Shown: positions 36,634 to 53,074 of the stretch, piece by piece
Layout of the letters: every line of letters starts with the position of its first letter
How positions within the stretch are numbered: position 1 is the first letter of the stretch
Assembly: GCF_030065885.1 (NCBI RefSeq)
Contig: NZ_JASJCS010000015.1
Location: forward strand, 1 to 53,074
Direction: 5' to 3'
Length of the DNA stretch: 53,074 nt
Source: Ilumatobacter sp.
GTDB lineage: Bacteria > Actinomycetota > Acidimicrobiia > Acidimicrobiales > Ilumatobacteraceae
Translations under genes and position numbers: made by a program
Notes under the pieces: model-generated
Databases searched by the model: none
What the model saw: only the letters and a program-made list of their open reading frames with translations
What the model was told of the DNA's origin: nothing

Positions 36634-38058
36634 TTAGCGGGGAAGCCTGCCCGGACCACCCGGGAGACCGCCGGTCTGGCCGCCCATCAGGCCCTCGAGC
36701 TCGGACATGTCGGGCATGCCCGCGCCGGTGAGGCCGCCCAAGCCCGGGAAGCCGCCGCGCTTGCCCTTCTTGCCGCCCCCCATGCCCATCTTCTTCATCA
36801 TCTTCTGCATCTCGCTGAACTGCTTGACGAGGCGGCTCACCTCGCCCGGCTCGGATCCGGAGCCCCGGGCGATGCGGGCGCGCCGGCTGCCGTTGATGAT
36901 CTGCGGGCGGGCGCGCTCTTCGGCCGTCATCGAGTGGATCATCGCCTCGATCGGCTTGAGGGCGTCGTCGTCGATCTGGGCGTTCTTGAGCTCTTTGGGC
37001 ATGCCGGGCATCATGCCGAGCACGCCGCTGAGCGGGCCCATCTTCTTGATCGCCTGCATCTGCTCGAGGAAGTCGTCGAGGGTGAACTGTCCCTCGAGCA
37101 TCTTCGCCGCGGCCTGCTCGGCCTGTTCGGCCTCGAACGCCTTCTCGGCCTGCTCGATCAAGGTGAGCATGTCGCCCATGCCGAGGATCCGGCCCGCCAT
37201 GCGGTCGGGGTGGAACTGCTCGAACGCGTCGAGCTTCTCGCCGGTCGAGGCGAACGCGATCGGGCGTCCGATGACCTCCTTGACCGACAGCGCCGCTCCG
37301 CCGCGGGCGTCACCGTCGAGCTTGGAGAGGATGACACCGTCGATCTCGAGCGTGTGGTGGAACGCCTCGGCGGTCTGCACCGCGTCTTGACCGGTCATCG
37401 CGTCGATGACGAGGAACGTGTAGTCGGGCGACACGGCACCCGAGATCAGTCGCACCTGCTCCATCATCTCGGCGTCGATCGACAGGCGGCCGGCGGTGTC
37501 GACGATGACGACGTCGCGGCCGAGCCGCTTGGCCTCCTCGACCCCCTCGAACGCGGTGATGACCGGGTCCTCGGGGTCGGAGAACACCGGCACGTCGACC
37601 TGCGCGCCGAGCGTGCGGAGCTGCTCGACGGCGGCGGGACGCTGCAGGTCGGCGCCGACCAGCAGCGGTTGACGGCCGTGCGACTTGAACCACCGGGCGA
37701 GCTTGCCGGTGGCGGTGGTCTTGCCCGAGCCCTGGAGGCCGGCCATCAGCACGACGGTCGGCGGCTTGGATGCGTACTGCAGGGTCAGCGTCTCGCCGCC
37801 CAGGATGCGGATCAGCTCGTCGTTGACCGCCTTGACCACCTGCTGGCCCGGGTCGAGCGCCTGCGAGCGCGTCGCGCCGATGGCGTGCTCGCGGATGCGG
37901 TTGCACACCGACCGCACGACCATCACGTTGACGTCGGCCTCGAGCAGCGCCGAGCGGATCTCCTTCATCACCTCGTCGACGTCGGCCTCGGTGAGGCGGC
38001 CCTTGCCGCGGAGTCGCTTGACGATGCCGTCGAGCCGGTTGGAGAGGTTGTCGAACAT
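36634..38058 (-). CDS. ffh: signal recognition particle protein Ffh (SRP54)
   Basis: The 474-residue GTPase binds 4.5S RNA and signal peptides. The N domain is MFDNLSNRLDGIVKRLRGKGRLTEADVDEVMKEIR. The G domain has G1 GLQGSGKTTATGK near 107, G3 VIVDTAGR, G4 LSKLDGDARGGAALS and ATGEK-like ASTGEKLD. The Met-rich M domain has the RNA-binding SRRARIARGSGSEPGEVSRLVKQF and ends in a Gly/Met-rich tail. A TAGCCT hexamer lies 10 nt before the ATG (38069-38074), compatible with a very short leader. Confidence 0.97.
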   Translation of the reverse strand: MFDNLSNRLDGIVKRLRGKGRLTEADVDEVMKEIRSALLEADVNVMVVRSVCNRIREHAIGATRSQALDPGQQVVKAVNDELIRILGGETLTLQYASKPPTVVLMAGLQGSGKTTATGKLARWFKSHGRQPLLVGADLQRPAAVEQLRTLGAQVDVPVFSDPEDPVITAFEGVEEAKRLGRDVVIVDTAGRLSIDAEMMEQVRLISGAVSPDYTFLVIDAMTGQDAVQTAEAFHHTLEIDGVILSKLDGDARGGAALSVKEVIGRPIAFASTGEKLDAFEQFHPDRMAGRILGMGDMLTLIEQAEKAFEAEQAEQAAAKMLEGQFTLDDFLEQMQAIKKMGPLSGVLGMMPGMPKELKNAQIDDDALKPIEAMIHSMTAEERARPQIINGSRRARIARGSGSEPGEVSRLVKQFSEMQKMMKKMGMGGGKKGKRGGFPGLGGLTGAGMPDMSELEGLMGGQTGGLPGGPGRLPR

Positions 38059-38068
38059 CAGGTGGGTC

Positions 38069-38074
38069 AGGCTA
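38069..38074 (-). promoter_or_regulatory. possible -10 hexamer (ffh)
   Basis: TAGCCT lies 10 nt before the ffh ATG, slightly further than in the leaderless sites; transcription would start a few bases before the ATG. Confidence 0.35.
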
Positions 38075-38118
38075 CCGGCAGCCCGACGCCTGCCGGGGCC
38101 CGGCCGGCGTGCGTGTGT

Positions 38119-38532
38119 TCAGCAGACCCACTCGTAGGTCTGCTCCTCGACCGTGAGCCAGATCGTCTGCCCGCTGTCGGAGGTGTAGTGGGCGACGCCG
38201 TCGGCGTAGACGACCAGCGTGCCGACGTCGTCACCCGGTCCCGGTTCGGCGACTCGGGCGAGGCCGACCGGAGCAGTCGGCAGCGGCTCGCGAGGCGTGT
38301 CGAGGATCTCGGCGATCTCGTCTGCGAATCCGAAGCCGAAGTCCGCCAGTGGGTACCAGAGCGTGCCGTCGACCTCGACGGGCTCGTTGGCACAGCCGAT
38401 GTAGTACTCCACGTCCTCGACGACCTCCACGATCGCCACGGCTGCCCGTGGCTCATCGGATTCGGAGGAGCCGCAGGCGATGATCGTGGCGATCGAGCAC
38501 GCCGCCATCGCGAGCGTGCGCACGACGCTCAT
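38119..38532 (-). CDS. small predicted lipoprotein, unknown function
   Basis: A 137-residue protein with a signal and lipobox-like IIAC (Cys about 20) and an acidic extracytoplasmic part. Two more cysteines, IGCANEP and the C-terminal residue EWVC, may pair. Its ATG overlaps the stop of the upstream lipoprotein gene by 1 nt (TGATG), so the two are coupled. No recognised domain. Confidence 0.7.
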   Translation of the reverse strand: MSVVRTLAMAACSIATIIACGSSESDEPRAAVAIVEVVEDVEYYIGCANEPVEVDGTLWYPLADFGFGFADEIAEILDTPREPLPTAPVGLARVAEPGPGDDVGTLVVYADGVAHYTSDSGQTIWLTVEEQTYEWVC

Positions 38533-40268
38533 CAGCCGATGAACTCGACGGCCACGACGACGTCGGCCTCGACGGCGACGTTGGCGCGGTTGGTGACGAA
38601 GTCCTCGGTCAGGGCGAGCGCTTCGCCGTCGAGCACTGCGACGCGAGTCACGAAGCCGAGCTCCTCGGCCTGTCGTTCGAACTCGGCGAGCGAGATGCCG
38701 ACCAGCTCGTCGAGCACGAGCGGGTCGACCGCGGGTTCGGGAGCCGGCGACGGCACGTCGGGCTCGGGCGACGGGGCCTCGTCGATCGGTGACTCGACCG
38801 GCTCGTCGGCGTCGACGACGTCGCCCTCGCCGATCACGGGTGCATCGTCGACCGGCATCGGCTCGGGCGCCGGCAGCGGCTCGGGCATCGGGAGGTCATC
38901 GGGTTCGACTCGGATCAAGAAGTCGTCGGTGACGGCGGGCACGACGTGCCAGCCGCCGTCGCTGTCGATGAACCGGTAGGCGGGCAGCAACCACACGGCG
39001 CCGTCGGTGTCCCAGGCCCACCAGAAGTCGGCCTCGACGTCGACGAGCGTCACGGTGATCGGCTCGGGCTCGGGCAGCGGTGGCAACGGCTCGACCGGCA
39101 TGGGGTCGACCGGCATCGGCTCGGGCTCGACCGGCGGCTCGCCGGGCACCGTCTCACCGGACTCGTCGGGCAGCACCTCGACCGTCTCGTCGTCGGCCGG
39201 CAGCACGTCGACCGACGCCGGGTCCTCGGCGATCGCGGACTCGGCGATCGCGGGCTCGGCGGCGACGCCGGCCTCGACGGCGACGCCGGTCTCGGCGACG
39301 CCGGGCGCGCCGAGCGGGAGGTCGACACCACCCAGACCTCCGCCGAATCCACCGAAGAAGCCGCTCTGGTCGGTCAGGCGGGCGATCGCCGCCTCGAGGT
39401 CGATCAAGCCGTACGGCCCGACCGGCTCGGGGACGGCGAGCGTGCCGCCGGCGAACTGCATCACGCCCTCGGCCCCGAAGCCGAAGTTCCAGGTGCGACC
39501 GGGCGCACGGCCGTCGGTGGTGTCGGTGATGCTGACGCTGGCGAACCAGTCGTCGGCGAAGGTGTCGAACCGCATCGTCGAGGGATCCTCACCCAGCGCA
39601 GCGAGCAGTTCACGGGCACGCTGCTCGGCGTCGGCGCCGGACGGGACGCCGGACGGCGGCTCGGGCTCGGGGCACTCGCCGATCTCGTTGCCGTCACTGT
39701 CGACGGCGACGGCGCAGCTGGTGACGACGCCGCCCTCGTCCCATGCGCTGCTGTAGTTCCACGACAGCTGCGCGTCCTCGAACAGCCAGACGCTGGGAGC
39801 GGAGCCATCGTCGGGCCCCACCCGCCAGCTGACGCCGAAGCCCTCGTCGATGCGAACCGCCTCAGCGGTCACGCCCAACGTGCCCGCCAACTCCTGGACC
39901 TGCTCGGCGGTCGCGGTGGCGCCTGCGGCGAAGACGTAGCCGACGTCGTCGGTCGGCAGCGGCGGCATGCCGTCGCCGACGACGTACTCGGCGATCCAGG
40001 GCGCGATCATCATGTCGCTCGTGGCGGCACCCTCGGCCGACGCAGCCGTGGACTGGTCGGCGGCGAGCCCGCCTCCGCCGGCGGCGCTGCCGCCGGTGAT
40101 CTCGATCGGCACCGGTGCCCGCATGCCCGTGCCGTCGACGCCGTCGATGGTCGAGACGGAACCGGCGTCGTCGGTGGATGCGGGATCGTCGGACCCGCAG
40201 GCAGCGAGGATCAGGACGGCAGCAGCGGCTGCCGGGACGAGGCGTGGGGGGATTCGCATCATGACCAT
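38532..40268 (-). CDS. large lipoprotein with C-terminal I78-inhibitor-like domain
   Basis: The 578-residue protein has a signal with lipobox LILAAC. An extracytoplasmic region follows (ATAEQVQELAGTLGVTAEAVRIDEGFGVSWRVGPDDGSAPSVWLFEDAQLSWNYSS) and then a Pro/Glu/Met-rich linker around 365-395 (PVEPEPMPVDPMPVEPLPPLPEPEP). Next is a WWAWDTDGAVWLLPAYRFIDSDGGWHVVPAV segment and a second Pro/Glu-rich linker. The last 55 residues (DELVGISLAEFERQAEELGFVTRVAVLDGEALALTEDF...NVAVEADVVVAVEFIG) match the layout of the peptidase inhibitor I78 fold. A role in inhibiting proteases is inferred from that fold only. The start is one of three clustered ATGs (40268, 40262, 40259). Confidence 0.78.
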   Translation of the reverse strand: MVMMRIPPRLVPAAAAAVLILAACGSDDPASTDDAGSVSTIDGVDGTGMRAPVPIEITGGSAAGGGGLAADQSTAASAEGAATSDMMIAPWIAEYVVGDGMPPLPTDDVGYVFAAGATATAEQVQELAGTLGVTAEAVRIDEGFGVSWRVGPDDGSAPSVWLFEDAQLSWNYSSAWDEGGVVTSCAVAVDSDGNEIGECPEPEPPSGVPSGADAEQRARELLAALGEDPSTMRFDTFADDWFASVSITDTTDGRAPGRTWNFGFGAEGVMQFAGGTLAVPEPVGPYGLIDLEAAIARLTDQSGFFGGFGGGLGGVDLPLGAPGVAETGVAVEAGVAAEPAIAESAIAEDPASVDVLPADDETVEVLPDESGETVPGEPPVEPEPMPVDPMPVEPLPPLPEPEPITVTLVDVEADFWWAWDTDGAVWLLPAYRFIDSDGGWHVVPAVTDDFLIRVEPDDLPMPEPLPAPEPMPVDDAPVIGEGDVVDADEPVESPIDEAPSPEPDVPSPAPEPAVDPLVLDELVGISLAEFERQAEELGFVTRVAVLDGEALALTEDFVTNRANVAVEADVVVAVEFIG

Positions 40269-40310
40269 TGGACGCCCGGCCGGTCGGCGTGGTTCCCGGC
40301 CATCGGGAAT

Positions 40311-41480
40311 TCAGCCTGCCGAGGGAGCGCCGGAGGTCTCGTCGAACAAGGCGGCGACGAACTCCTCGGGGTCGAACGGGATCAGGTCGTCGACCTGCTC
40401 GCCGATGCCGACCAGCTTGACTGGGATCCCGAGCTCGGTCTCGATCGCGAAGACGATGCCGCCCTTCGCGGAGCCGTCGAGCTTCGTGAGCACGACGCCG
40501 GTCACGTCGGTGGCCTCGCCGAACTGGCGGGCTTGCGCCATGCCGTTCTGGCCGGTGGTGGCGTCGATCACCAGGAGCGTCTCGGTGACCGTGCCGGCGC
40601 CCTTCTCGGCGACGCGGCGCACCTTCTTCAGCTCCTCCATCAGGTTGGTCTTCGTGTGCAGGCGGCCGGCGGTGTCGGCGAGCACCAGGTCGATCCCCTG
40701 CGATGCGGCCCGCTCGACGCCGTCGAAGATCACCGACGACGGGTCGCCGCCTTCTGCGCCCCGCACGAAGTCGGTGCCCGAGCGTTCGGCCCACGTGCCG
40801 AGCTGTTCGGCGGCCGCCGCACGGAAGGTGTCGCCGGCGGCGAGCAGCACCGACCGGCCGGCCTCGACCTGGTGGCGAGCGACCTTGCCGATGGTGGTGG
40901 TCTTGCCGACGCCGTTGACGCCGACGAACATCCAGACGTTGGGGCTGCCGGGGTCGAATGACTCGTCGAAGTGCACCGTGCGATCGGCACCGGCGAGCTG
41001 CTCGACCATGTCGCCCTTGAGCGCGTCGAGCAGTTGCTGTGGCTCGGTGATCTCCTTGTCCTTCACGCGGGTCTTGAGGTCGTCGAGCAGCGCATCGGTC
41101 ACGCCGAGGCCGACGTCGGCCCGCAGCAACGCCTCTTCGAGCTCGTCCCACGTGTCGTCGTCGATGGCGCCCCGGCCGAGCACCGATGCAAACGCCCCGC
41201 TGAAGGCGGAGCGGGCCTTGGCGAGTCGCTGGCGCAGCGACGGCGGCTTCGCCTCGACGGCCGGTTCGGGCTCGACGACCAGCTCGGGCTCGACGACGGG
41301 CGCCTCGACGGCCGTGGCATCGTCGGCCTCGAGTGCCTTGGGCGGCGGCGCCTCGGGAGGCGCCACCGGACGCGGCGGCGCCTCGAGACGTGCGGCCGAA
41401 CGCCGGTTGAGGATGACGACCCCGAAGCCGAACACCATCACGGCGACGGCGAGGATCAGGAAGATCCAGTACCACTCCAT
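40311..41480 (-). CDS. ftsY: signal recognition particle receptor FtsY
   Basis: The 389-residue protein has an N-terminal membrane helix (about 4-25), then an acidic Pro/Glu-rich A domain (about 35-90). The NG domain follows: SLRQRLAKARSAFSGAF, G1 GVNGVGKTTTIGK, G2 DTFRAAAAEQL, G3 LVLADTAGRLHTK, G4 LTKLDGSAKGG and GIGEQVDDLIPFD. It docks the ribosome-SRP complex at the membrane. The integral N-terminal helix is common in actinobacterial FtsY. TAGCGT lies 9 nt before the ATG. Confidence 0.97.
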   Translation of the reverse strand: MEWYWIFLILAVAVMVFGFGVVILNRRSAARLEAPPRPVAPPEAPPPKALEADDATAVEAPVVEPELVVEPEPAVEAKPPSLRQRLAKARSAFSGAFASVLGRGAIDDDTWDELEEALLRADVGLGVTDALLDDLKTRVKDKEITEPQQLLDALKGDMVEQLAGADRTVHFDESFDPGSPNVWMFVGVNGVGKTTTIGKVARHQVEAGRSVLLAAGDTFRAAAAEQLGTWAERSGTDFVRGAEGGDPSSVIFDGVERAASQGIDLVLADTAGRLHTKTNLMEELKKVRRVAEKGAGTVTETLLVIDATTGQNGMAQARQFGEATDVTGVVLTKLDGSAKGGIVFAIETELGIPVKLVGIGEQVDDLIPFDPEEFVAALFDETSGAPSAG

Positions 41481-41489
41481 CGCTGAGAG

Positions 41490-41495
41490 ACGCTA
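41490..41495 (-). promoter_or_regulatory. possible -10 hexamer (ftsY)
   Basis: TAGCGT lies 9 nt before the ftsY ATG in the 81-bp gap after smc, consistent with a leader of only a few bases. Confidence 0.4.
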
Positions 41496-41561
41496 TCGGC
41501 CCGCGGGGGAACGACCGGCTAGGACGCCCCGTCGACCCAGGGAACGGTTTGACCCGGCCGG

Positions 41562-44500
41562 TCAGGTCCGCGCCGTCGCGGTGCTGGCCCGCTCGGTGAC
41601 GACCTTCGACGATCCGCCGGGCTGCATCGACACGCCGAGCAGGCAGTCGCCCGCCTCCATCGTGCGCTTCTGGTGCGACACGATCAGCAGCTGGGCGTCC
41701 TTGCGGAACTCGGCCACGAGCCCGAGGAACCGGTGCAGGTTGACGTCGTCGAGCGCCGCCTCGACCTCGTCCATGACGTAGAACGGCGACGGCCGGCTCC
41801 GGAACACCGCGAACAGGAACGCGAGCGCCGTCAGGCTGCGCTCGCCGCCGGACAGCAGGGACAGCTTCTTGATGTTCTTCCCGCTCGGCTTGGCCTCGAC
41901 CTCGATGCCGGTGTTGAGCAGGTCGTCCGGAGCCGTGAGCTTGAGCTTGCCCTCACCGCCTGGGAACAGGGTGCCGAACAGCTGCGCGAAGTTGGCGCTG
42001 ACGTCGGCGAAGGCGCCGGCGAACACGTTCTGGATCTCCTGGTCGACGGCCTTGATGACCCGGGACAGGTCCCGTCGCGTCGTGCGGACGTCGTCGAGCT
42101 GCTCTTCGAGGAAGGTGTGGCGCTGCTGCAGCTCGTTGAACTCCTCGAGCGCGAGCGGGTTGATCGGCCCGAGCAGGCGGAGCTCGCGGTCGAGCTCGCG
42201 GACCCGGCCGGCCGCAGTGGCACCCTCGGGCAGCTCCGGCTGCTCGGCGGCCTCGGCGGTCGCTGGTTCGACGTCGAGGTCGCGGCGCAGCGTCTCGATC
42301 GACGTCTCGAGCCTGAGCTTCGCCTCTGCCTCCTCGATCTCGGAGCGGTGCGAGGTGTGGCGCACCTCCTCGAGGCGCCGCTCGGCATCGGTCCGACCCG
42401 AGCGCGCCGTGTCGAGCTCGGTCGCCAGCGCGCGCACCTCGTCGCTCTGTCGGCGGCGACGCTCGACCAGGTCGTCGTGCTCGGCCTCGATCACCGTCCG
42501 GTGCCGCTCGACGAGCCCGGTCAGGCGCTCGATCGCCAGGATCGCTCGCTCGATCTGCTCGCGCCGGTCGGCGGCGACCAGCCGTGCCTCCTTGTCGGCC
42601 TCGAGACGCCGCTCGGTCTCGGCGATCCGGGCCTCGAGGAACTGCTGCCGCTCGTGCAGCCCCGCGTTGCGAACCTCCAACTCGCGGCGGCGCGACGCCA
42701 GGACGGCGGCGCGTGCCTCGAGCTCGGCGCGGGCCTCGCCACGCGCCCTGGCTGCCTCGGCCTCGGCCTGCTCGTCGGCATCCAACGACGGCAGCACCGT
42801 CTCGAGCTCGGCGATGCGGGCCCGCTCGCGCTCGATGTGGCCGCCGAGATCGACGACGGTCGCGCCGAGGGTCTCGAGCTCGGAAGCGGCCTCGCGGCGC
42901 TGACCGAGTGCCCGGCTGAGACCCTCGGAGGCCGCGGTGAAGCGCGCGTCGTTCTGATCGAGCTGCCGCGTGAGTTGGTGCTCGTGGGCGCGCGCCTGCT
43001 CCAAGGCGTGTCGGGCGTCGGCCTGCGCCTGGACGGCGGCTGCGAGCGCATCGGCGGCCTGCGCCGCCCGCTCGGTCGCGTCGTTGAGCGCGGCGGCAGT
43101 GGCGCCGCCCGCCGCAGCGCCGATCCGCCAGCCGTTCGGAGCGAATCGGTCGCCGTCCGCCGTGACGATGACGGCGGCCGGGTGCTGGAGCGCCGCGTCG
43201 ATGGCTGCGTCGAGCCCATCGACACGCACTGCGCCGCCGACGAGTGCCGCCAGCAGCCCTGCGAGCCCTGCCCGGTCGGAGCGAACGTGCGGGAGCACCG
43301 GCTCGCCGACGGCCGGCCGCATCGTGTCGCCCGCCGAGACGCCGGCCGCGAGCACAGCCCCGCTGGTGTCGGACTCGCGCAGCGCTGCGAGGGCGCGCTG
43401 CGCCGATGTGTGACCATCGACGACGACAGCGTTCAGGGCCTCGCCGAGCGCTGCCTCGACGGCGCTGTGCCACCCGTCGTCGATCTCGACCAGGTCGAGC
43501 AGGGTGCCGAGGACGCCGTCGACGTCGGCGAGCCGCTCGGCACCGGCGCGGGCGTGGGCCGCGTCGAGGGCGAGCTGGAGCGCCTCGACGCGGGCCTGGG
43601 CACGCGAGGCCTCGTCGGAGGCGGTGTGCCGCTCGGCCGTGCGCTCGTCGAAGTCGGCCGCGGCCTGGGTGCGGGTCTGCTCGGCCTGCTCGATCTGGCT
43701 CACCAGCGGTGACTCGACGTCTTCCGCACGGGCGCAGTCGGCGCGGAGACGGTCGGTCTCGTCGTCGAGCTCGGCCAGCTTGGTCCTGAGCTCGTCGCTG
43801 CGAGTGGTCGAACGCCGCAGTTCGCTCTCGGTGCGTTCGACCCCGCCGCGGATCGACCGCAGCTCGCCGCGCACCTCGGCGGCTGCGCTTGCCGCCTTCG
43901 CCCCGCCGTCGGCGGCGCCGAGCGCCTCGGTGACCCGCTCGCGCTCGCTCTGGAACGCGACCTCGTCGGACTCGAGCGCTTCGGTGTCGGGCGCCACCCC
44001 GAGGAGCGCAGCAGCGACCTCGTCGAGCTCGGCCCGGAAGCGCGCCGCGTCGGCTTCGAGGTTGGCGACGACGCCGGCGTCGAGCAGCTGACCGTGGTCG
44101 CGCTCCAGCGAACGTTTGCGTTCGGCGAGCACCGCAGTGAGACCACGCGAGCGCTCGCGCAGCTGCTCGACCTGCATCAGGCGATCGCTCACGTCGTTCT
44201 CGCCACGGGCGGTGAGCTGGGCCTCGATCGACATGATCTGCGTGTCGAGGCCGGCGAGCTCGTTCTTGAGGTCGTTCTCGAGGCGGACCGCCTCGATCCG
44301 GTCGGCTGCGATCGACTCGAGCTTGGCGCGCAGGCCGCTGATCTCGCGCCCCGCGACGAACACGCGCAGGGTGTGCAGCTCGCCGACGAGCGTCTCGTGG
44401 CGCCGCGCCGCCTCGGCTTGCCGCTCGAGCGGGCGGAGCTGCCGCCGCACTTCGCGCAGGAGGTCCTGCAACCGCAGCAGGTTCGCCTCGGTGGCGTCGA

Positions 44501-45041
44501 GGCGCCGCTCGGCCTTCTCCTTGCGCTTGCGGTACTTGAGGACTCCGGCCGCTTCCTCGATGATGCCCCGGCGATCCTCGGGCCGGGCGTTCAGCACCGC
44601 GTCGATCTGACCCTGGCTGACGATCACGTGTTGTTGCCGGCCGACGCCGGCATCGGAGAGCAGCTCCTGGATGTCGAGCAGGCGGCAGGGCACGCCGTTG
44701 ATGGCGTACTCGCTCTCGCCCGTGCGGAACAGGATGCGGGTGAGCGTCACCTCGTTGAACTCGACCGAGAGCAGCCCCGACGTGTTGTCGAGCGTGAGGC
44801 TGACCTCGGCGCGACCGAGGGCGGGCCGCGACTCGGTACCGGCGAAGATCACGTCGTCCATCTTCTGCGACCGCACCGACTTGGGTGCCTGCGCGCCGAG
44901 GACCCAGGCGATCGCATCGACGACGTTGGACTTGCCGGAACCGTTGGGCCCGACCACCACGGTCACCCCGGGTTCGAGGGCCATGAGGGTCGAGTCGGCG
45001 AAGGACTTGAAGCCCTTGAGGGTGAGACTCTTCAGGAACAC
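41562..45041 (-). CDS. smc: chromosome segregation ATPase SMC
   Basis: The 1159-residue condensin core protein has Walker A VVGPNGSGKSNVVDAIAWVLG near residue 33. Long coiled coils (about 170-490 and 660-1000) flank a hinge (about 500-650, DGVLGTLLDLVEIDDGWHSAVEAALGEALNAVVV ... DRFAPNGWRIG). The C-terminal head has signature LSLLSGGERSLTALAFLFAVF and Walker B FYVMDEVEAALDDVN, ending in LIVSHQKRTME. GTG 45041 gives the canonical MFLKSLTLKGFKSFAD start. TAGGTT lies 10 nt before it. No scpA/scpB is in the window. Confidence 0.97.
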   Translation of the reverse strand: MFLKSLTLKGFKSFADSTLMALEPGVTVVVGPNGSGKSNVVDAIAWVLGAQAPKSVRSQKMDDVIFAGTESRPALGRAEVSLTLDNTSGLLSVEFNEVTLTRILFRTGESEYAINGVPCRLLDIQELLSDAGVGRQQHVIVSQGQIDAVLNARPEDRRGIIEEAAGVLKYRKRKEKAERRLDATEANLLRLQDLLREVRRQLRPLERQAEAARRHETLVGELHTLRVFVAGREISGLRAKLESIAADRIEAVRLENDLKNELAGLDTQIMSIEAQLTARGENDVSDRLMQVEQLRERSRGLTAVLAERKRSLERDHGQLLDAGVVANLEADAARFRAELDEVAAALLGVAPDTEALESDEVAFQSERERVTEALGAADGGAKAASAAAEVRGELRSIRGGVERTESELRRSTTRSDELRTKLAELDDETDRLRADCARAEDVESPLVSQIEQAEQTRTQAAADFDERTAERHTASDEASRAQARVEALQLALDAAHARAGAERLADVDGVLGTLLDLVEIDDGWHSAVEAALGEALNAVVVDGHTSAQRALAALRESDTSGAVLAAGVSAGDTMRPAVGEPVLPHVRSDRAGLAGLLAALVGGAVRVDGLDAAIDAALQHPAAVIVTADGDRFAPNGWRIGAAAGGATAAALNDATERAAQAADALAAAVQAQADARHALEQARAHEHQLTRQLDQNDARFTAASEGLSRALGQRREAASELETLGATVVDLGGHIERERARIAELETVLPSLDADEQAEAEAARARGEARAELEARAAVLASRRRELEVRNAGLHERQQFLEARIAETERRLEADKEARLVAADRREQIERAILAIERLTGLVERHRTVIEAEHDDLVERRRRQSDEVRALATELDTARSGRTDAERRLEEVRHTSHRSEIEEAEAKLRLETSIETLRRDLDVEPATAEAAEQPELPEGATAAGRVRELDRELRLLGPINPLALEEFNELQQRHTFLEEQLDDVRTTRRDLSRVIKAVDQEIQNVFAGAFADVSANFAQLFGTLFPGGEGKLKLTAPDDLLNTGIEVEAKPSGKNIKKLSLLSGGERSLTALAFLFAVFRSRPSPFYVMDEVEAALDDVNLHRFLGLVAEFRKDAQLLIVSHQKRTMEAGDCLLGVSMQPGGSSKVVTERASTATART

Positions 45042-45051
45042 GCTTCGCCGA

Positions 45052-45057
45052 AACCTA
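45052..45057 (-). promoter_or_regulatory. possible -10 hexamer (smc)
   Basis: TAGGTT lies 10 nt before the smc GTG start; no Shine-Dalgarno is evident in between. Confidence 0.4.
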
Positions 45058-45286
45058 CTCGTCGCGTGTTGCGGAACTCGCGAACTCGCGCAGTTTGTTC
45101 AGCCGTCGTCCAGACGGCCCCGATTCACCACCTGCACCGGGGTCAGACGTGCACCGGACGATGTGCCGGCCGCCTCGCACTCAGTGACATCCGGCGGCAG
45201 CCCTGAACATCCCTTGACGGTGGGAAGCGGCCACGGCTCGACACGGCCACTACATTCGGCGTCGGCACCCGGCGGAAGGAATGTAG

Positions 45287-46966
45287 ATGCGGCGACCACA
45301 CGCGATCCTGGCGGCCCTCGCGGTCACGACCACCTCGGTGATCGCGCCGAGCATCGGCGGCGGCGTGGACGAGGCGATCGCCGCCACCACGTCGACGGTG
45401 ATCGACCTCGGCGCCGACGTCCACGACGTCGCCATCGACGAGACGGCCGGGCTGGCCTACGTGTCGGTGCCCGCTCAGGACGAGGTCGTCACGATCGACC
45501 TCACAACCGGGCTCGAGGTCGACAGCGACTTCTTCGCCAACCCGTGGGGACTCGAGCTGTCCGCGGACGGCAGCACGTTGTTCGTCGCCCTGCGCGACTC
45601 GACCGGCGTCGCGGTGTGGGACCTCGTCGCCGACACGACCCAGATCATCACGGTGCCCGAGCTCGACGACCCGCGGACGTACGACGTGATCAACCCGCAA
45701 CCCGACCTCCTGCTCGTCTCGGCCAGCCCCAGCAGCTCGGGGCTCGCGTACATCGCAGCCGTCGACCTCACCGACAACAGCACCAGCCGCGTCGCCAGCA
45801 ACGAGATCATCCGGGCCGCCCCGACCTTCACGGGCCACGGCGACTTCGTGTACGTCGGCGAGGGCTTCTCCCCCAACTCGCTCTACAAGCTCGACCTCAC
45901 CCAACCCGGCATCCCGATCGTCCTCGAAGACGACCACGGCGCCGTCAGCGGTACCCAACGATCCGTCGTCGCACCCGACGGCAGCGTCATCGTCACCGGC
46001 GCCGGCCAACGCCTCGACACCACGAACTTCGTCCAGACCGGTGCGTTCGGCGCTGGCCTCGGCGAGTTCTCGGTGAGCGACGGCGCGTTCTGGGTCTACG
46101 ACACGAGCTTCGACACCGCCGGCGACCTCCGACGCTACGACCCGATCACGACACAGCAGCTGCGCGTGTTCCCCGACCCGTGCGGGTTCAGCCAGCCACT
46201 GAACGGCAGCGGCTTCGAGGACGCTGTCGGCCGGTTCATCATCACCGCCGGCAGCGAGGTCTGCATCCTCGCCGTGCCCACGATCTGCTTCGGGCAGGTC
46301 GTCGACGTCGACCTCGCACTCGGGCAGACGCCGACACCCGGACCCGACGTGATCCTCGGCACGCCCGGCAACGACGTCATCGACGCACTCGGTGGCGACG
46401 ACCGGATCTGCGCCCTCGGTGGCTTCGACACGATCGACGGCGGCGACGGCGTCGACCTGATCGACGGCGGCGACGACGCCGACACGATCGACGGCGGCGG
46501 CCAGATCGACGGCATCGTCGGCGGGAGCGGCGGCGACCTCATCTACGGCGGCGCCGGCAGCGACATCATCCTCGCCGGCGAGGGCAACGACACCGTGCTC
46601 GGCGGCACCGGCGACGACGAGATCCACGGGGGACCCGGCGACGACGAGCTCCGTGGGCAGAACGGCGCCGACACCGTCTGGGCGAACACCGACACCGACA
46701 CCGGCTCGGTCGACGAGGACGCGATGTACGGCGGTGGCGGCCACGACAAGATCACCGGTGACCGGGGACCGGACGTGATCCTCGGCGGCAACCACGCCGA
46801 CGTGCTCGCCGGCAAGGCCGGCGACGACATGATCTACGGCAACAACGGCGCCGACACCCTTCGCGGCGGCCCGCACGACCTCGGCGACTACTGCAACGGC
46901 GGCACACGCAACTCGTCGACGGGTGACGTCGCCAGCGCCTGCGAGACGGTGCTCAACGTGCCCTGA
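45287..46966 (+). CDS. secreted beta-propeller protein with RTX calcium-binding repeats
   Basis: The 559-residue protein has a signal peptide (about 1-33, ending DEAIAA). A propeller-like region of YVTN type covers about 40-330 (DVHDVAIDETAGLAYVSVPAQDEVVTIDLTTG, LELSADGSTLFVALRDSTGVAVWDL). The C-terminal 200 residues hold RTX nonapeptide repeats of GGxGxDxhxGG type (DTIDGGDGVDLIDGGDDADTIDGG, GGTGDDEIHGGPGDDEL). It is probably exported and folds on binding Ca2+. AGGA lies 6 nt before ATG 45287. It is inserted in opposite orientation between mutM and smc. Confidence 0.87.
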   Translation: MRRPHAILAALAVTTTSVIAPSIGGGVDEAIAATTSTVIDLGADVHDVAIDETAGLAYVSVPAQDEVVTIDLTTGLEVDSDFFANPWGLELSADGSTLFVALRDSTGVAVWDLVADTTQIITVPELDDPRTYDVINPQPDLLLVSASPSSSGLAYIAAVDLTDNSTSRVASNEIIRAAPTFTGHGDFVYVGEGFSPNSLYKLDLTQPGIPIVLEDDHGAVSGTQRSVVAPDGSVIVTGAGQRLDTTNFVQTGAFGAGLGEFSVSDGAFWVYDTSFDTAGDLRRYDPITTQQLRVFPDPCGFSQPLNGSGFEDAVGRFIITAGSEVCILAVPTICFGQVVDVDLALGQTPTPGPDVILGTPGNDVIDALGGDDRICALGGFDTIDGGDGVDLIDGGDDADTIDGGGQIDGIVGGSGGDLIYGGAGSDIILAGEGNDTVLGGTGDDEIHGGPGDDELRGQNGADTVWANTDTDTGSVDEDAMYGGGGHDKITGDRGPDVILGGNHADVLAGKAGDDMIYGNNGADTLRGGPHDLGDYCNGGTRNSSTGDVASACETVLNVP

Positions 46967-47035
46967 CCGGCGGGGCGGGCTCGCGACGTCACGGACCCCC
47001 GCTCAGTCATTCCGAGCGTGGCCCGGGCGCGCCGC

Positions 47036-47887
47036 TCAGCGCTGGCAGCGTGGGCAGTAGAACGTCGAACGCTGGACCGAGACGGTGCGACGGATCCAAC
47101 CGACGCCGCACGTCCGGCACCGTTCGCCCTCCCGGCCGTAGACGTGGTGCTCGTCCTGGTACGAACCGCCCTCGCCGAAGAGGTCGACGTACTGAGCGTC
47201 GCCGAGCGTCGACCCACCCGACGCGATCGCCTCGGACAGCACGCGGTGGATCGCGTCGTGGAGGCGCCGTTCCGACATCGTCGACAGCTCGTCGCTGATC
47301 CGGTCGGGGCGCAGTCGGGCCTCGTGCAGGATCTCGTCGGCGTAGATGTTGCCGATGCCCGCGATGACGTGCTGGTCCAGCAGCAGGGGCTTCAGCTGGC
47401 GGCGGTGCGAGCGGAGGATGGCCCTGAGCTGGGGCAACGCCAGCCCCTCGGCGATCGGGTCGGGGCCGAGCGCGGCCAGGTCGGGGATCTCGACCGCGAC
47501 GTTGTCCGGATCGAACACGACGACCTCACCGAACGTGCGCGGGTCGACGAACCAGAGCTCCTCAGCCGGACGGTCGGCGTCGCCATCGAGATGGAGCACG
47601 ACGTGTGTGTGCGGCGGCCGATCGTTGCCGGTGGGCGCGACCAGCACCTGACCGCTCATGCGGAGGTGGATCATCAGCTCGTCGCCGCTGTCGAGCGGCA
47701 GCAGCAGGTACTTGCCACGGCGGTTCGCAGCGAGGATCGTCGTGTCGGTCAGGCCGTGGACGACCGCCTCGGGGCTGGTCCGGCGAACGGTCCGTTCGCG
47801 GCCGACTTCCACCGCGCCGACGTGACGGCCGACCACACGTCGTTCGAGGCCGCGGCGGACCGTCTCGACCTCGGGCAGCTCGGGCAC
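47036..47887 (-). CDS. mutM: formamidopyrimidine-DNA glycosylase (Fpg/MutM)
   Basis: The 283-residue bifunctional glycosylase/AP lyase removes oxidised purines such as 8-oxoguanine. The catalytic Pro2-Glu3 are in MPELPEVETVRRGL, the lysine in ANRRGKYLLLPLDSGDELMIHLRMSGQ, then H2TH residues in IAGIGNIYADEILHEARLRPD. A zinc finger of two C-x2-C pairs (CRTCGVG and FYCPRCQR) ends the protein. It begins 3 bp after the rnc stop. Confidence 0.96.
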   Translation of the reverse strand: MPELPEVETVRRGLERRVVGRHVGAVEVGRERTVRRTSPEAVVHGLTDTTILAANRRGKYLLLPLDSGDELMIHLRMSGQVLVAPTGNDRPPHTHVVLHLDGDADRPAEELWFVDPRTFGEVVVFDPDNVAVEIPDLAALGPDPIAEGLALPQLRAILRSHRRQLKPLLLDQHVIAGIGNIYADEILHEARLRPDRISDELSTMSERRLHDAIHRVLSEAIASGGSTLGDAQYVDLFGEGGSYQDEHHVYGREGERCRTCGVGWIRRTVSVQRSTFYCPRCQR

Positions 47888-47890
47888 GCG

Positions 47891-48565
47891 TCAGTCCGCG
47901 GTGATGGCATTGAACGCGATGCTGGCGGCGGCCTGCTCAGCGGCCTTCTTCGAGCGCCCCTCGCCCTCGCCCAGCAGCTCTTTGGCGACGAGCACTCTCG
48001 CGTAGAACGTCTTGTCGTGATCGGGGCCGCTCGACCGCACCTTGTAGTCGGGTGACGGGCGCCCCTGATGTGCCAAGGCCTCCTGGAGCGCCGACTTGTA
48101 GTCGAGCCGGTCGAGTGAGTCGACGGCGTCGGCGAGCCGTGGCGTGAACAGGCGGTCGATGAGCGCGTACGCGGGGTCTGCGCCGCCGTCGAGGTACACC
48201 GCCCCGAGCACCGCCTCCATGGCGTCGGACAGGATCGACACCTTCTCGCGCCCACCGGCTGCGTCTTCGCCGCGCCCGAGCAGGATGTGCTCGCCGACGT
48301 GCAGTTCGGCGGCGACCTCGGCCAGAGCGCGAGCGTTCACGACGCTCTTCCGCAGGTCGGTGAGCGCACCCTCGGCCAGATCGCCGAAGCGGTGGAACAC
48401 CAGATCGGCGATCACCCAGCCGAGGACCGCGTCGCCGAGGAACTCGAGTCGTTCGTTGCTGTGGTCGTCGTCGGATTCGGCCACCCACGAGCGATGGCAC
48501 ATCGCCCGATGGAGCAGCTTCTCGTCACTGAACTCGTGACCGAGGCGCGTCTGCAGCGCCTTCAC
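47891..48565 (-). CDS. rnc: ribonuclease III
   Basis: The 224-residue endonuclease processes double-stranded RNA, including rRNA precursors. The catalytic motif is NERLEFLGDAVLGWVIAD (Glu/Asp metal ligands) with SDAMEAVLGAVYLDGG as the second acidic site. The dsRNA-binding domain covers about 155-224 (DYKSALQEALAHQGRPSPDYKV ... GRSKKAAEQAAASIAF). It starts 3 bp after the acpP stop. Confidence 0.96.
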   Translation of the reverse strand: MKALQTRLGHEFSDEKLLHRAMCHRSWVAESDDDHSNERLEFLGDAVLGWVIADLVFHRFGDLAEGALTDLRKSVVNARALAEVAAELHVGEHILLGRGEDAAGGREKVSILSDAMEAVLGAVYLDGGADPAYALIDRLFTPRLADAVDSLDRLDYKSALQEALAHQGRPSPDYKVRSSGPDHDKTFYARVLVAKELLGEGEGRSKKAAEQAAASIAFNAITAD

Positions 48566-48568
48566 GGC

Positions 48569-48862
48569 TCAGCTGCCGGTGCGCTCGTGGACGTAGTCGA
48601 CCGCGTCGCGGACGGTCTTGAGATCCTCGAGGTCCTCGTCTTCGATCCGGAAGCCGACCGTTCGGTCGGACAGCTCCTCCTCGAGGGATTCGACCAGCTC
48701 GATCAACGCGAGCGAGTCGGCCTCGAGATCGTCGACGAACGACTGCCCCTCGCTGATGGTGGACGGGTCGATCTCCAAGATGTCGGCCAGCCGATCGCGG
48801 ACGATCTCGAAGATCTCGTCGCGCTCGATCGGGCCCTGGTTCACATGAGTCTCTGCAGGCAT
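48569..48862 (-). CDS. acpP: acyl carrier protein
   Basis: A 97-residue acidic helical protein. The phosphopantetheine attachment serine is Ser50 in DDLEADSLALIELVESLEEE, a small variant of the usual DSLD/DSLE motif (DSLAL). The context acpP-rnc-mutM is standard in actinobacteria. ATG 48862 is set by TAGAAT 7 nt upstream. Confidence 0.94.
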   Translation of the reverse strand: MPAETHVNQGPIERDEIFEIVRDRLADILEIDPSTISEGQSFVDDLEADSLALIELVESLEEELSDRTVGFRIEDEDLEDLKTVRDAVDYVHERTGS

Positions 48863-48869
48863 CGGGGCG

Positions 48870-48875
48870 ATTCTA
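48870..48875 (-). promoter_or_regulatory. strong leaderless -10 hexamer (acpP-rnc-mutM)
   Basis: TAGAAT, the closest match to TATAAT-type -10 elements in this window, lies exactly 7 nt before the acpP ATG with no ribosome binding site. Confidence 0.65.
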
Positions 48876-48924
48876 CCTGGTGCGTTGTTTGCTCGACGGG
48901 GTGTCTCTCCATCACAATCGAAGT

Positions 48925-49338
48925 ATGCGCGACGATCCCATCACCGCCGTCATGACCACCGACGTGGTGTCGATCGACCGCGACCAACCGCTGTCGGACG
49001 TCTACCACGCACTCCAGGGCGCCGGCTTCCACCACATGCCGGTGCTCGACGGTGATCGACCCGTCGGCATGATCTCGGGCACCGACGTGCTCAAGCTCGT
49101 CTACGACATCGAAGGTGCCAGCGACCGCATGCTGACGAACATGCTCGACCACCAGTTCAACATCGACGATGCGATGAGCACCGACCTGGTGACGTTGCCC
49201 GACACGGCGACGGTGCACGACGCCGCCGTCGTGCTCGCCGACGGCAAGCTGCACTCCGTCGTCGTGGTCGACGCGACGGGCGCGATGGCCGGCATCGTCA
49301 CCTCGACCGACCTCGTTCGCTTCCTCCGCGATCTCTGA
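48925..49338 (+). CDS. tandem CBS-domain protein
   Basis: The 137-residue protein is two CBS motifs forming one Bateman module: ITAVMTTDVVSIDRDQPLSDVYHALQGAGFHHMPVLDGDRPVGMISGTDVLKL and IDDAMSTDLVTLPDTATVHDAAVVLADGKLHSVVVVDATGAMAGIVTSTDLVRFL. Such proteins sense adenosine nucleotides; the partner is unknown. ATG 48925 has CACAAT 6 nt upstream. It is divergent from acpP and is followed by a palindromic repeat. Confidence 0.88.
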   Translation: MRDDPITAVMTTDVVSIDRDQPLSDVYHALQGAGFHHMPVLDGDRPVGMISGTDVLKLVYDIEGASDRMLTNMLDHQFNIDDAMSTDLVTLPDTATVHDAAVVLADGKLHSVVVVDATGAMAGIVTSTDLVRFLRDL

Positions 49339-49351
49339 ACCGTGCCAGTTG

Positions 49352-49407
49352 CCGTGTCACTTGGTGTCAGACACCAAGTGACACGGTGTCTGACACCAAG
49401 TGACACG
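49352..49407. repeat. palindrome with 17-bp arms plus an extra direct copy
   Basis: Arms 49352-49368 and 49370-49386 are perfect inverted repeats around a single A (CCGTGTCACTTGGTGTC and its complement). The right arm motif GACACCAAGTGACACG is repeated directly at 49392-49407, preceded by GGTGTC-T-GACACC, a second small palindrome. It fills most of the 81-bp gap between two convergent genes and can fold from either strand. It may be a REP-like element or a bidirectional terminator. Confidence 0.85.
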
Positions 49408-49419
49408 CGGTCGTGAGCG

Positions 49420-51465
49420 TCACTCCCAGAGTGCGACGCTGATCGTCTCGTCGTTGACGCCCTGCGGGAACCAGACCCGGACGTGGTCGCCGTCAACCGC
49501 GAAGACGACGCCTCCGGAGCGCGCCACCCACACGAACTCACCCTCGCCGCAGCACCCCTGCCGGAACGTGTCGAGGCCCGGCCACCGCTGCGTGTCGTCG
49601 ACCAGCCGGCCCGTCTCGACGTCGACCATCAGATAGCCGTCGGCCCGATGCGGGGAATCGGTCGGGCCGTACACCTCACCGCTGCTGACGATCGCGAACC
49701 CGTCCGCCGCCACCGGGACCGCACGCTGACCCGGGAGCTGCCAGCGGATCTCACCCGATGCGGTCTCGAGCGCGACGAGGGACCCGTCCACGCAGAACTG
49801 CTCGTCCGTCCGACCCGCACAGGCATCGAGCAGCGTGAGGTCGCCCACCTCGATGCTCCGGAAGCCCTCGCGTGAGGGGTCGAGCAGCTCCGGCCGCGTC
49901 CAGAGGACCTCGCCGATCGCGTTGCGACCCGACCATGCCCTGTCCTCGAACGAGGCATCCGCCCAGACGTCCGTCGCAGCGAGGATCGAGGCGTCGTCGG
50001 TCCGCCACGCGCCGCCCTCGAACACGCCGGCGACCTGGCGCCACTCGGAGGCCATGTGGAAGAGCCGGAACGAGCCATCGTCGACGTCCGGGTCGAGGCG
50101 GAACTCGAGCCGCCACGCCTGCTGACCGTTGGCACGCTCGAGGTACGGGATCGTCGTCGTCGACCCGCTGGCGACGTCCAGCACGTGCAGCCGGTCGTCG
50201 TCGACCGAGATGCGACCCTCCTTGCGGCCGAACACCACGTGACGGTCGCTGATCGCCTCGACCCCGAGACCCTCCGGGATGTCCGGGGCGGCGAGGTCGT
50301 TGCCGGTCCGCACGTCGAGGGCACGCCAGGCATCGACCAATGAGTGGTCGTCGGTCCGAGGGTGCTCGAGCACGAGCGCGGTCTGTGTCGGCCCCACGAC
50401 CACGAACCCGAGTGAGGCCCCATCGAAGCAGCGCCGCCAGCGCACCTCGCCGTCGTCACCGACCAGCGCGAGCATCCACGCTGCGAACCAATCGGACGAG
50501 CTCGGCCGGACCGAGATCAGGGTGCCACCGTCGACCCGCTGCACACCGACCGCCGGCTCAGATGCCAGCCTCGCACGCTCGGAGCGGCCGCGCGGAACGG
50601 TGATGTCGAGCGCCGGCACCGATCCGAGCGGGCCGAACTGCCCGTACACCGGTGCGTCCACGTTCGAGGTCGTCGGGTCGGCCGACAGCTCGACGCACTC
50701 CGGTGTCCACCCCACCGGCACGATCGGATCGAGCGTCCGGATCTGCTCGGCGAGGGCCTCGATCGATTCGCGCTCGGCGTCGTCTGGTAGCGGACCGAGC
50801 ACAGCGGTCACGTCGGTCCCACCGCACCCGACGTGGAAGCCGTGGACGTCGACCGTCCATGGCTCGTCGTCCTCCGGGTCGAGGAACGCGACCACGTCGA
50901 CGCCGGCAACATCGACGGCGGATGCGAGTGGGTCACCCTGCTCGTCCGGCCACGTGGACGGGATCTTGAAGCTGGTCATGCCATGGACGTCACCGACGAG
51001 GGTGCTCACGTCGTCGAGCTCGTAGACGGTGACGGTCGAGCCGTCCACGACGCGCCGGCTCACCGACGACAGCGAACCCGTGATCACCGCCCTGTTCCGA
51101 GCGATCAGGTCACCGAGCCGGACCGCAGGGTGGTCGTCGCGGGCGGTGTGACCGGAACCGAGCACCGCCAGGATCGGCGCCAGAGACGCTGCATCGGCGC
51201 ACTCCATGATCGACTCCGCTGCCTCCGTCGACGGGAGAGGCTCGACCGGACCGGTCGGCGGTGGCCGTTCTGTCGTTCGTTCTGGCGTCGTCGGTGAGGT
51301 CGATGACGTCGGGACGCCGCCGGTCCGCTCGGTGGACGGCGACGACGGTGGCGACTCGATGCCCACGTCGTCGGCGTCGGCCGCACACGCGGCGAGCGGC
51401 ATCAGCAGCGCGGTCACGGCAACCAACGCGGAGTGACGAGCCCTCGGATGGCCGCGGCTGCTCAT
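49420..51465 (-). CDS. predicted lipoprotein with PQQ-like beta-propeller features
   Basis: The 681-residue protein has a lipoprotein signal (ALVAVTALLMPLAAC) and a Ser/Thr/Pro-rich linker (about 38-75). The long beta-rich region contains repeated blade-like segments: GEVRWRRCFDGASLGFVVVGPTQTALVLEH, WRALDVRTGNDLAAPDIPEGLGVEAISDRHVVFGRKEG, LVALETASGEIRWQLPGQRAVPVAADGFAIVSSGEVYG, GYLMVDVETGRLVDDTQRW. The pattern value-ETASGEIRWQ-value recalls PQQ-like propellers. ATG 51465 is chosen over GTG 51468 because AGGAGG lies 4 nt before it. Function unknown. Confidence 0.72.
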   Translation of the reverse strand: MSSRGHPRARHSALVAVTALLMPLAACAADADDVGIESPPSSPSTERTGGVPTSSTSPTTPERTTERPPPTGPVEPLPSTEAAESIMECADAASLAPILAVLGSGHTARDDHPAVRLGDLIARNRAVITGSLSSVSRRVVDGSTVTVYELDDVSTLVGDVHGMTSFKIPSTWPDEQGDPLASAVDVAGVDVVAFLDPEDDEPWTVDVHGFHVGCGGTDVTAVLGPLPDDAERESIEALAEQIRTLDPIVPVGWTPECVELSADPTTSNVDAPVYGQFGPLGSVPALDITVPRGRSERARLASEPAVGVQRVDGGTLISVRPSSSDWFAAWMLALVGDDGEVRWRRCFDGASLGFVVVGPTQTALVLEHPRTDDHSLVDAWRALDVRTGNDLAAPDIPEGLGVEAISDRHVVFGRKEGRISVDDDRLHVLDVASGSTTTIPYLERANGQQAWRLEFRLDPDVDDGSFRLFHMASEWRQVAGVFEGGAWRTDDASILAATDVWADASFEDRAWSGRNAIGEVLWTRPELLDPSREGFRSIEVGDLTLLDACAGRTDEQFCVDGSLVALETASGEIRWQLPGQRAVPVAADGFAIVSSGEVYGPTDSPHRADGYLMVDVETGRLVDDTQRWPGLDTFRQGCCGEGEFVWVARSGGVVFAVDGDHVRVWFPQGVNDETISVALWE

Positions 51466-51469
51466 CACA

Positions 51470-51475
51470 CCTCCT
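51470..51475 (-). promoter_or_regulatory. ribosome binding site deciding the start at 51465
   Basis: Minus-strand AGGAGG is 4 nt before ATG 51465 but only 1 nt before GTG 51468. Confidence 0.5.
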
Positions 51476-51714
51476 CGCGACGATCGTACGGAGCGGTTCC
51501 GACGGGGCGCCAGGGTCCGACGACCCAGGCCAACGCTCGATGCCCGAGCCTCGAAGCGCTGCTCGGCGAACGCTTCCTGGTTCGGTGGCCCGGCATGCCA
51601 GGCCCCGCCCCGTCGTGGCCCCTCGGGCGATCAGGACCGGACGCCCTTGCCTCCCCGTCCTCCGAGCACGGCTACCAGGGCCGACTGTCGCCAGCGCAGC
51701 AGGGCCCGGTGGGT

Positions 51715-52224
51715 TCAGCCACGCTGTTGTTCGATCACGCCGGACCATGTGACGCGGGCGCCCTCGTGGCCGGTCCGCACCATCCAGATCGTGGCGAGCA
51801 CGGCCAGGATCGCCACGGCGACGGCGAGGCCCGGCACGATCAGACGCAGCGCAATCGCGCCGCGGTCCGCCGTCACGGGCTCGACGGCGAGTTCGCCGGG
51901 CGACCACCGCCGCTCGACGACGAGCAGGGCGACGAGCGCGACGAGCCAGAGCAGCATGAGGTTGCGGGTCGTCTCGGCCAGCGCTTCATGCTTGCCGACG
52001 TCGACGAGGCCGGCGAGCAGGTCGTCGAACGCCTGACCCGACTGCATCGCGAGCAGCACCGAGACGAAGACGACCACCTGCGCGCCGACCAACCACCAGC
52101 CGAAGCGAGCCCGCCAACGTGATCGGGCGACGACGACCACGGTGACGAGCGCGAGGAGGGGCTCGAGCACGATCGGTGCGTGCACGAGGAGCACGTGTGT
52201 CGGCAGGTCGAAGATCGACTCCAT
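51715..52224 (-). CDS. DUF2231-like four-helix membrane protein
   Basis: A 169-residue protein with four hydrophobic segments (near 10-35, 45-65, 90-105, 130-150). LPTHVLLVHAPIVLEPLLALVTVV at the N-terminus resembles the DUF2231 start, with a conserved His in the first helix that could bind heme or metal. GACACT lies 6 nt before the ATG. It follows the penicillin-binding gene by 25 bp on the same strand. Confidence 0.72.
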   Translation of the reverse strand: MESIFDLPTHVLLVHAPIVLEPLLALVTVVVVARSRWRARFGWWLVGAQVVVFVSVLLAMQSGQAFDDLLAGLVDVGKHEALAETTRNLMLLWLVALVALLVVERRWSPGELAVEPVTADRGAIALRLIVPGLAVAVAILAVLATIWMVRTGHEGARVTWSGVIEQQRG

Positions 52225-52249
52225 CGGTCCAGTGTCGCGTGGGTCGGGA

Positions 52250-53074
52250 TCAGGCTGTCACGGTCACGCTCAGGACCTGCCCGGCAGCGGCGTGGCTGTT
52301 CGGGCCGACGGCGATGTTGCAGAGCAGGACGTAGTTGCCCGGCGGCACCTCCCACGTCGCCGACATCGTCTGGCCGGGCTCGAACCGTTCGATGCGTCCG
52401 ATGAAGTCGTCGGGCGCGATCGCGTCCTCGTCGACGGCGCCGTTGGCGAGCAGCGGGAGCGTCTCGTAGCTCTCGCCGCGGACGAGCACCAGTTCGTGGG
52501 GGAACTCGCCGTCGTTCGACGCTTCGAACGTGACGGTCCCGCCGGTGAACTCGTTGGGCGCGACGATCTCCCATTCGATGAGCGAGACCGGGACGACCGT
52601 CCCGGCGGCCGGGTCGGTGGCCGGCGGGTCGGTGGCGGGCGGATCGGTGGCCGGCGGCGCGTGCGGCGAGCGGAAGGGCGTCGGTGCCGCAGGCGGCGCA
52701 GCCGGATCCGGCGGCACCGTCGCGGCCGGCTCGTAGCCGACGATGTCGAACAGGCACTCGTTGCCCGGGAGGTACAGCCGCGCCGCCTCGCGGGGCTGTG
52801 GGCCGGGCCGGTCCCAGTCGGTGAACTCGAACTGCTCGAGACCGATCTGCTCCATGTAGGCACCCCAGATGCGGGCCGGGAACGTGCCACCCTGCACGCG
52901 GGACACCCCCGCCGCCTCGAACTCGGGCACGTTGCGCATCGGCGTGTACCGGTCGGGGTCGCGCACCATCACGGCCGTCGAGAGCTCGGGGGTGGCGCCC
53001 ACGAAGAACGCCGTCCAGTTGTTCTGCTGGGTGCCGGTCTTGCCGAACGCCGGCCGCCGGTCGGCGAACTCCGC
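52250..53074 (-). CDS. penicillin-binding protein (3' part) fused to a cupredoxin-like domain
   Basis: The gene enters from the right edge; 274 residues are visible. Residues 1-75 are the end of a class A PBP transpeptidase: the KTG box in FGKTGTQQNNWTAFFVG (12-14), STAVMVRDPDRYTPM, and VQGGTFPARIWGAYM. A Pro/Ala/Thr linker follows with a three-fold TDPPA repeat (about 140-156). The last 110 residues are cupredoxin-like: TGGTVTFEASNDGEFPHELVLVRG, then VPPGNYVLLCNIAVGPNSHAAAGQVLSVTV. His193, Cys252, His261 and Gln266 fit type 1 copper ligands, with H-x4-Q replacing the usual H-x4-M. One unbroken frame covers both parts. Confidence 0.85.
   Translation of the reverse strand, partial: AEFADRRPAFGKTGTQQNNWTAFFVGATPELSTAVMVRDPDRYTPMRNVPEFEAAGVSRVQGGTFPARIWGAYMEQIGLEQFEFTDWDRPGPQPREAARLYLPGNECLFDIVGYEPAATVPPDPAAPPAAPTPFRSPHAPPATDPPATDPPATDPAAGTVVPVSLIEWEIVAPNEFTGGTVTFEASNDGEFPHELVLVRGESYETLPLLANGAVDEDAIAPDDFIGRIERFEPGQTMSATWEVPPGNYVLLCNIAVGPNSHAAAGQVLSVTVTA
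52613..52657 (-). repeat. 15-bp repeat, three copies, in the PBP-cupredoxin linker
   Basis: Units 52613-52627, 52628-52642 and 52643-52657 differ by one or two bases and encode the repeated TDPPA pentapeptide between the transpeptidase and the cupredoxin-like domain. Confidence 0.85.

Follow-up and report, generated by a model that had tools for sequence, protein, structure and literature searches.

The analyzed window was 53,074 nucleotides long and represented the entire contig C94 of an Ilumatobacter sp. assembly, position 53074 being the end of the contig. The assembly consisted of 200 contigs with a total of 5.04 Mb, a completeness of 90.7% and a contamination of 5.1%. An open reading frame of 274 aa ran on the minus strand from 53074 to 52250, contained no stop and was still open at the contig end. 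It encoded, in this order, a transpeptidase KTG box (53033-53041, within AFGKTGTQ), a PPATD-repeat linker of the sequence APPATDPPATDPPATDPAAG and a cupredoxin-like domain with a His and a Cys-x8-His-x4-Gln motif. The single uninterrupted frame from the KTG box to the cupredoxin pattern, which the preliminary description had reported, was thus present on the minus strand (53074-52250), and the claimed motifs were located exactly: the His of NDGEFPHE (codon at 52496-52498), the Cys of PPGNYVLLC (52319-52321; PPGNYVLLCN with the next residue) and the C-x8-H-x4-Q pattern, in which the His and the Gln were encoded at 52292-52294 and 52277-52279, respectively.

The cupredoxin-like domain occupied positions 52250..52600 (minus strand), with the putative ligands His35, Cys94, His103 and Gln108 in domain numbering; the alignment, the stand-alone relatives and a profile comparison with solved structures supported this assignment, and in relatives the corresponding sequence forms the C-terminal part of a stand-alone lipoprotein. 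Directly downstream, on the same strand, a gene of a DUF2231 membrane protein was found at 51715..52224 (Pfam DUF2231, E 2e-8). A putative 682-aa lipoprotein, recognized by eye from its lipobox, was encoded at 49420-51468, between the DUF2231 gene and a gene of a CBS-domain protein, and had no Pfam match at E ≤ 0.01. Another protein of the window (45287-46966) carried C-terminal GGxGxDxxxG-like nonapeptide repeats, which we take to be RTX-like. The repeat part matched many contigs of the same assembly at approximately 66-75% DNA identity and hence belonged to a multi-copy family.

The remaining part of the frame (52601..53074, minus strand) was assigned as a 3′ coding piece of a class A penicillin-binding protein (PBP) of the PBP1A type, comprising the KTG box, the end of the transpeptidase, the C-terminal tail and the PPATD-repeat linker. 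The assignment was based on the identity to a PBP1A encoded on contig C55 of the same assembly and on partial NCBIfam matches to PbpC (E 8.9e-8) and to the PBP1A family (PBP_1a_fam, E 2.2e-4). Neither half was recognized by Pfam, which gave no family for the frame at E ≤ 10, and weak matches to a signal peptidase (E 0.03) and to NPCBM_assoc (E 0.037) were discarded as chance. The KTG box and the transpeptidase end in the frame were homologous to PBP1A; the contig ended 474 bp into the PBP part, before the region upstream of the KTG box where the glycosyltransferase domain and the SxxK and SxN motifs would lie. The position of the contig end therefore reduced the PBP side to about 158 residues preceding the domain.

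The PBP1A of contig C55 was an 867-aa open frame with both Transgly (E 2.2e-53) and Transpeptidase (E 1.5e-15) domains of Pfam. The PBP part of the window was 85-87% identical to it at the protein level and 85% identical at the DNA level, and both possessed a KTG box and a P/T-rich tail. The gene following it encoded a CT398-like/zinc-ribbon protein, as did the gene following PBP1A in two further loci, L082 and L083, which apparently corresponded to the congeners G067 and G123 and thus added no genomes. A good PBP1A match was obtained in 8 of 9 congeners, and only a distant one was present in G101. The C55 protein and those of all 8 congeners with a good match ended in a conserved SGTTIPP-VLDP-APLPS tail without a cupredoxin, whereas the window frame ended in the cupredoxin domain. 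Within the assembly, only the C55 gene and the C94 fragment matched PBP1A; hence, the remainder of the C94 copy was missing from the assembly.

Over a stretch of 119 codons, the two copies showed 35 codon differences, of which 21 were synonymous and 14 changed the amino acid, and 27 of the 42 base changes fell on third positions. Such a pattern suggested that these were long-separated genes, as between species. In a tree of the PBP fragment, C55 clustered with G054 and G067 to the exclusion of C94 (support 82/82), and C94 was placed within the genus, apart from two outgroup rows; a paralogue and a gene of a congener were not separated by this placement. The source of the PBP piece was sought by DNA in 221 family genomes, including the window's own, where the best other genomes reached only 81-83% identity. 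At the protein level, the best match among genome contigs was 84%, in a search from which the own genome, or one very close to it, may have been left out. In complete congeners, PBP1A lay well apart from the smc/rnc locus carried by C94, the respective positions being 1.68 and 3.34 Mb in G019 (approximately 1.7 Mb apart) and 1.17 and 1.49 Mb in G038 (approximately 0.3 Mb apart).

Further, the cupredoxin domain was compared with its relatives. Of 200 family genomes, 65, including that of the window, had domain matches at E ≤ 0.001; these gave 85 rows, one of which was the window itself. The alignment comprised 26 loci out of the 32 available, some rows being near-identical (L084 and L085, L010 and L013). 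The His35, Cys94 and His103 residues were invariant in all 26 aligned domains, and the axial position was occupied by Gln in 13, by Met in 12 and by His in one. The six loci left out of the alignment (L024, L029, L031, L033, L034 and L035) retained His, Cys, His and Met, as judged by eye. The spread of the domain among the family genomes together with the conservation of His/Cys/His in 26/26 domains indicated that the ligand pattern did not arise by chance. The axial Gln and the C-x8-H spacing of the window differed from 12 of the more distant aligned rows, which had Met in the axial position, several of them as C-x4-H-x4-M. The axial position of L018, a close relative, was taken by His (SHAASGH). 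An axial His is unusual for a type-1 copper site. Two tandem cupredoxin domains per frame were observed in L023, L024, L029, L089, L092, L096, L100, L101, L102, L108 and L110.

When searched alone as a single sequence against solved structures (PDB), the window domain gave no cupredoxin match. A profile of the 26 domains matched a blue copper protein (6kol, E 4.5e-8), auracyanin B (1ov8, E 1.7e-4) and rusticyanins (E 0.007-0.15), and the likeness of the window domain to these proteins is accordingly one at the level of the profile. At E ≤ 0.05, Pfam SoxE and Cupredoxin_1 were each matched by 13 of the 26 members; the window row matched neither. The assignment of the window domain as a predicted cupredoxin with a type-1 copper site was considered well supported through its relatives. 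In this respect the reading given by the preliminary description stood, supported by the conservation of the ligands in the relatives and by the profile matches to 6kol and auracyanin B.

The relatives examined were mostly stand-alone secreted lipoproteins. Among 30 relatives (L008-L036 and L084), 25 matched a consensus lipobox pattern, four more (L020, L025, L034 and L035) had a lipobox-like sequence by eye, and none was seen in L023; L085 was cut by the end of its own contig. In the window frame, no signal peptide and lipobox of its own preceded the domain. The closest relative, L084 (CALKZY010000037.1), was a 209-aa lipoprotein that was 70% identical over the domain and was followed by a DUF2231 gene. 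The similarity started at residue 161 of the 274-aa window frame (position 52594), just past the linker. L084 shared with the window the H/C/H/Q ligands and a DUF2231 gene lying downstream in the same orientation, but it lacked any PBP part and had a signal peptide, a lipobox and a linker of its own. In the window, the PBP sequence took the place of these three elements. A separate, unfused PBP1A-type gene was observed on the same strand approximately 1-1.4 kb downstream of the cupredoxin gene in L084 (5414-8230) and L085 (1708-3513); it was 27-28% identical to the C55 PBP1A, and its Transgly and Transpeptidase domains were confirmed in L084.

Among the 13 closest loci, with at least 46% identity, 8 had the DUF2231 gene directly downstream on the same strand, as in the window (L008, L011, L014, L015, L016, L018, L084 and L085, the last two being near-identical). 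It was divergently oriented in L017 and placed about 1 kb upstream in L094, was not found in L009, L010, L012 and L013 among the 13 closest loci, and was found nowhere in the more distant set of 18 loci (L019-L036). The profile used for this search was built from the DUF2231 protein of the window and its matches in these loci. Given the presence of the DUF2231 pair and the absence of the lipoprotein start, the window cupredoxin had its usual downstream neighborhood, and its usual upstream start was missing.

Other PBP-cupredoxin fusions were searched for by tblastn with the C55 PBP1A (E ≤ 0.01). No PBP similarity was detected within the frames of 41 family loci (29 and a further 12, L100-L111), which accounted for 44 of the 84 cupredoxin rows that the 200 family genomes gave besides the window; the frames of the remaining 40 rows did not exceed 293 aa. 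Of 395 genomes of the class, 143, the own one included, had a match. Among the matches listed from the class genomes, the 10 loci whose frames measured 511-888 aa showed no PBP similarity, and neither did the frame of L094, a short stand-alone relative. In 8 of these 10 long frames, a lipobox-like start was seen by eye before the domain, the remainder of the frame being upstream DNA. By eye, the cupredoxins of L093 and L095 looked like C-terminal domains of longer proteins of other kinds with different upstream parts, and cupredoxin fusions as such may thus exist in the class. The PBP1A-cupredoxin architecture that the preliminary description had proposed to seek in Acidimicrobiia was therefore not met again in the loci checked.

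The similarities of the two halves met at the linker. Its repeat, which comprised three PPATD-coding copies with a 15-bp spacing, was located by a repeat search at 52604..52657 (minus strand), at the boundary of the PBP and cupredoxin similarities. The DNA match to C55 stopped at 52615, the protein alignment drifted on to 52589 through low-complexity sequence and the cupredoxin similarity started at 52594, so that the loss of one similarity and the onset of the other coincided at the same linker. The repeats were imperfect, the longest exact self-repeat being 14 bp, and the longest exact word common to the linker and seven other compared loci was 16 bp. The PPATD repeat was native to the PBP tail, since PATD repeats were also present in the tail of the C55 PBP (APPATDPPATDPP). 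A P/T-repeat linker was likewise found in some of the stand-alone lipoprotein relatives, such as L012 (PPATEPPATEPP) and L009 (PPETS/PPETA). The linker of L009 contained a run of 10 Ns and the contig of L085 ended just inside the domain, and the site thus appeared to be hard to assemble in relatives too.

The contig end did not coincide with a stretch identical to C55, mismatches being present within the last 30 bp. No long second copy of the C94 backbone was found in the assembly for positions 30001-42000 and 42001-52600, one multi-copy repeat family being set aside in the latter. Two linker patterns were used to look across the assembly for the absent 5′ portion of the lipoprotein gene, and no cupredoxin was among the matches. 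Outside C94 and C55, the matches belonged to a beta-helix-like protein on C53 and to two lipoproteins on C24 and C187 that looked by eye like substrate-binding proteins; all were rejected as not being cupredoxins.

Based on these comparisons, it was considered probable that the PBP-cupredoxin join is an assembly chimera of the PBP1A tail of a congener and an ordinary cupredoxin lipoprotein gene. In related bacteria, each half has its counterpart in an ordinary gene of its own, and it is for this reason that an assembly error was regarded as the most likely origin of the join. The course of the contig resembles that of a chimeric one: at a low-complexity linker it departs from the gene expected there, passes into another of which the assembly holds a fuller copy elsewhere, and stops 474 bp further on. 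The sequence below approximately 52600 would then be the 3′ part of the lipoprotein gene followed by the DUF2231 gene, and the last 474 bp of the contig, from approximately 52601 onward, would originate from PBP1A of a relative within the genus, either another strain or another species. The join would lie in a linker that is rich in proline and threonine and codes for repeats, such as either protein can have. According to a review, contigs that are chimeric between related species are a recognized error in the assembly of metagenomes (PMC7299287).

Several observations stood against an assembly origin. The reading frame was kept across the join, which has a chance of one in three for a random join and is likelier if the linkers carry repeats in the same frame. 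The exact shared words of 14-16 bp were short for an assembler k-mer, neither partner's missing piece was found in the assembly, and no genome with the source PBP was found. A PPATD repeat in the linker of the window's own lipoprotein is an assumption. The PBP1A-type gene near the pair in L084 and L085 also counted against a chimera, but it was located downstream and was only 27-28% identical to the C55 PBP1A.

The same continuity of the frame was weighed in favor of a genuine fusion, in which a second class A PBP (or the only one, if the genome bin is composite) would have had its P/T-rich tail replaced by the cupredoxin through recombination at the linker. A type-1 copper site would then be tethered outside the membrane beside the transpeptidase, where it might buffer copper or act as a redox partner. 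The unbroken in-phase frame with intact ligands agreed with such an origin, as did the PATD repeats native to the PBP tail, in C55 as well, and the single copy of the tested C94 backbone, owing to which the contig was not plainly a contaminant. However, this architecture occurred in none of the 41 family loci or of the 10 long-frame class loci among the matches listed, the genus tail was conserved in 8 congeners and C55, and the remainder of this PBP copy was missing from the assembly. A genuine fusion was therefore judged unlikely. Still less probable was a real rearrangement devoid of function, in which a partial 3′ duplicate of PBP1A, or a piece acquired from a congener, would have been inserted upstream of the cupredoxin domain, cutting the latter from its signal peptide and leaving the frame as a pseudogene chimera. 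It would fit a PBP side visible for only the last ~158 residues and the presence of another PBP1A in the assembly, but the PBP piece reached the contig end and hence showed no sign of stopping, the frame was undamaged and 21 of the 35 codon differences to C55 were synonymous.

The preliminary description was thus upheld for the cupredoxin and its copper site, on the strength of ligand conservation and the profile, but not for the fusion to the PBP, in view of the relatives and the contig edge. The cupredoxin as a PBP appendage, in particular, was disfavored by relatives that were mostly stand-alone lipoproteins and by the different tail of PBP1A in C55 and 8 of 9 congeners. The suggested function beside the cell-wall synthase is probably moot, considering the stand-alone relatives, the pairing with DUF2231, the different PBP1A tails and a contig edge lying 474 bp beyond the domain.

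If true, the fusion would be an unusual class A PBP architecture, met in no relative checked, and one lineage within a genus of Acidimicrobiia would have a site for redox reactions or copper buffering next to its cell-wall synthase. The case also carries a warning that assembly can produce a neat in-frame fusion of two recognizable domains where a low-complexity linker lies close to the end of a contig; such fusions are exposed by checking contig ends, second copies and neighbors. Judged by the compared sequences, the real content of the locus is a recurrent gene pair of a cupredoxin lipoprotein with a predicted axial Gln ligand and a DUF2231 protein. We proposed that this cupredoxin would have a type-1 copper site and be held at the membrane, outside the cytoplasm, by a lipid anchor, most likely serving as an electron carrier or a copper binder that works together with the DUF2231 membrane protein.
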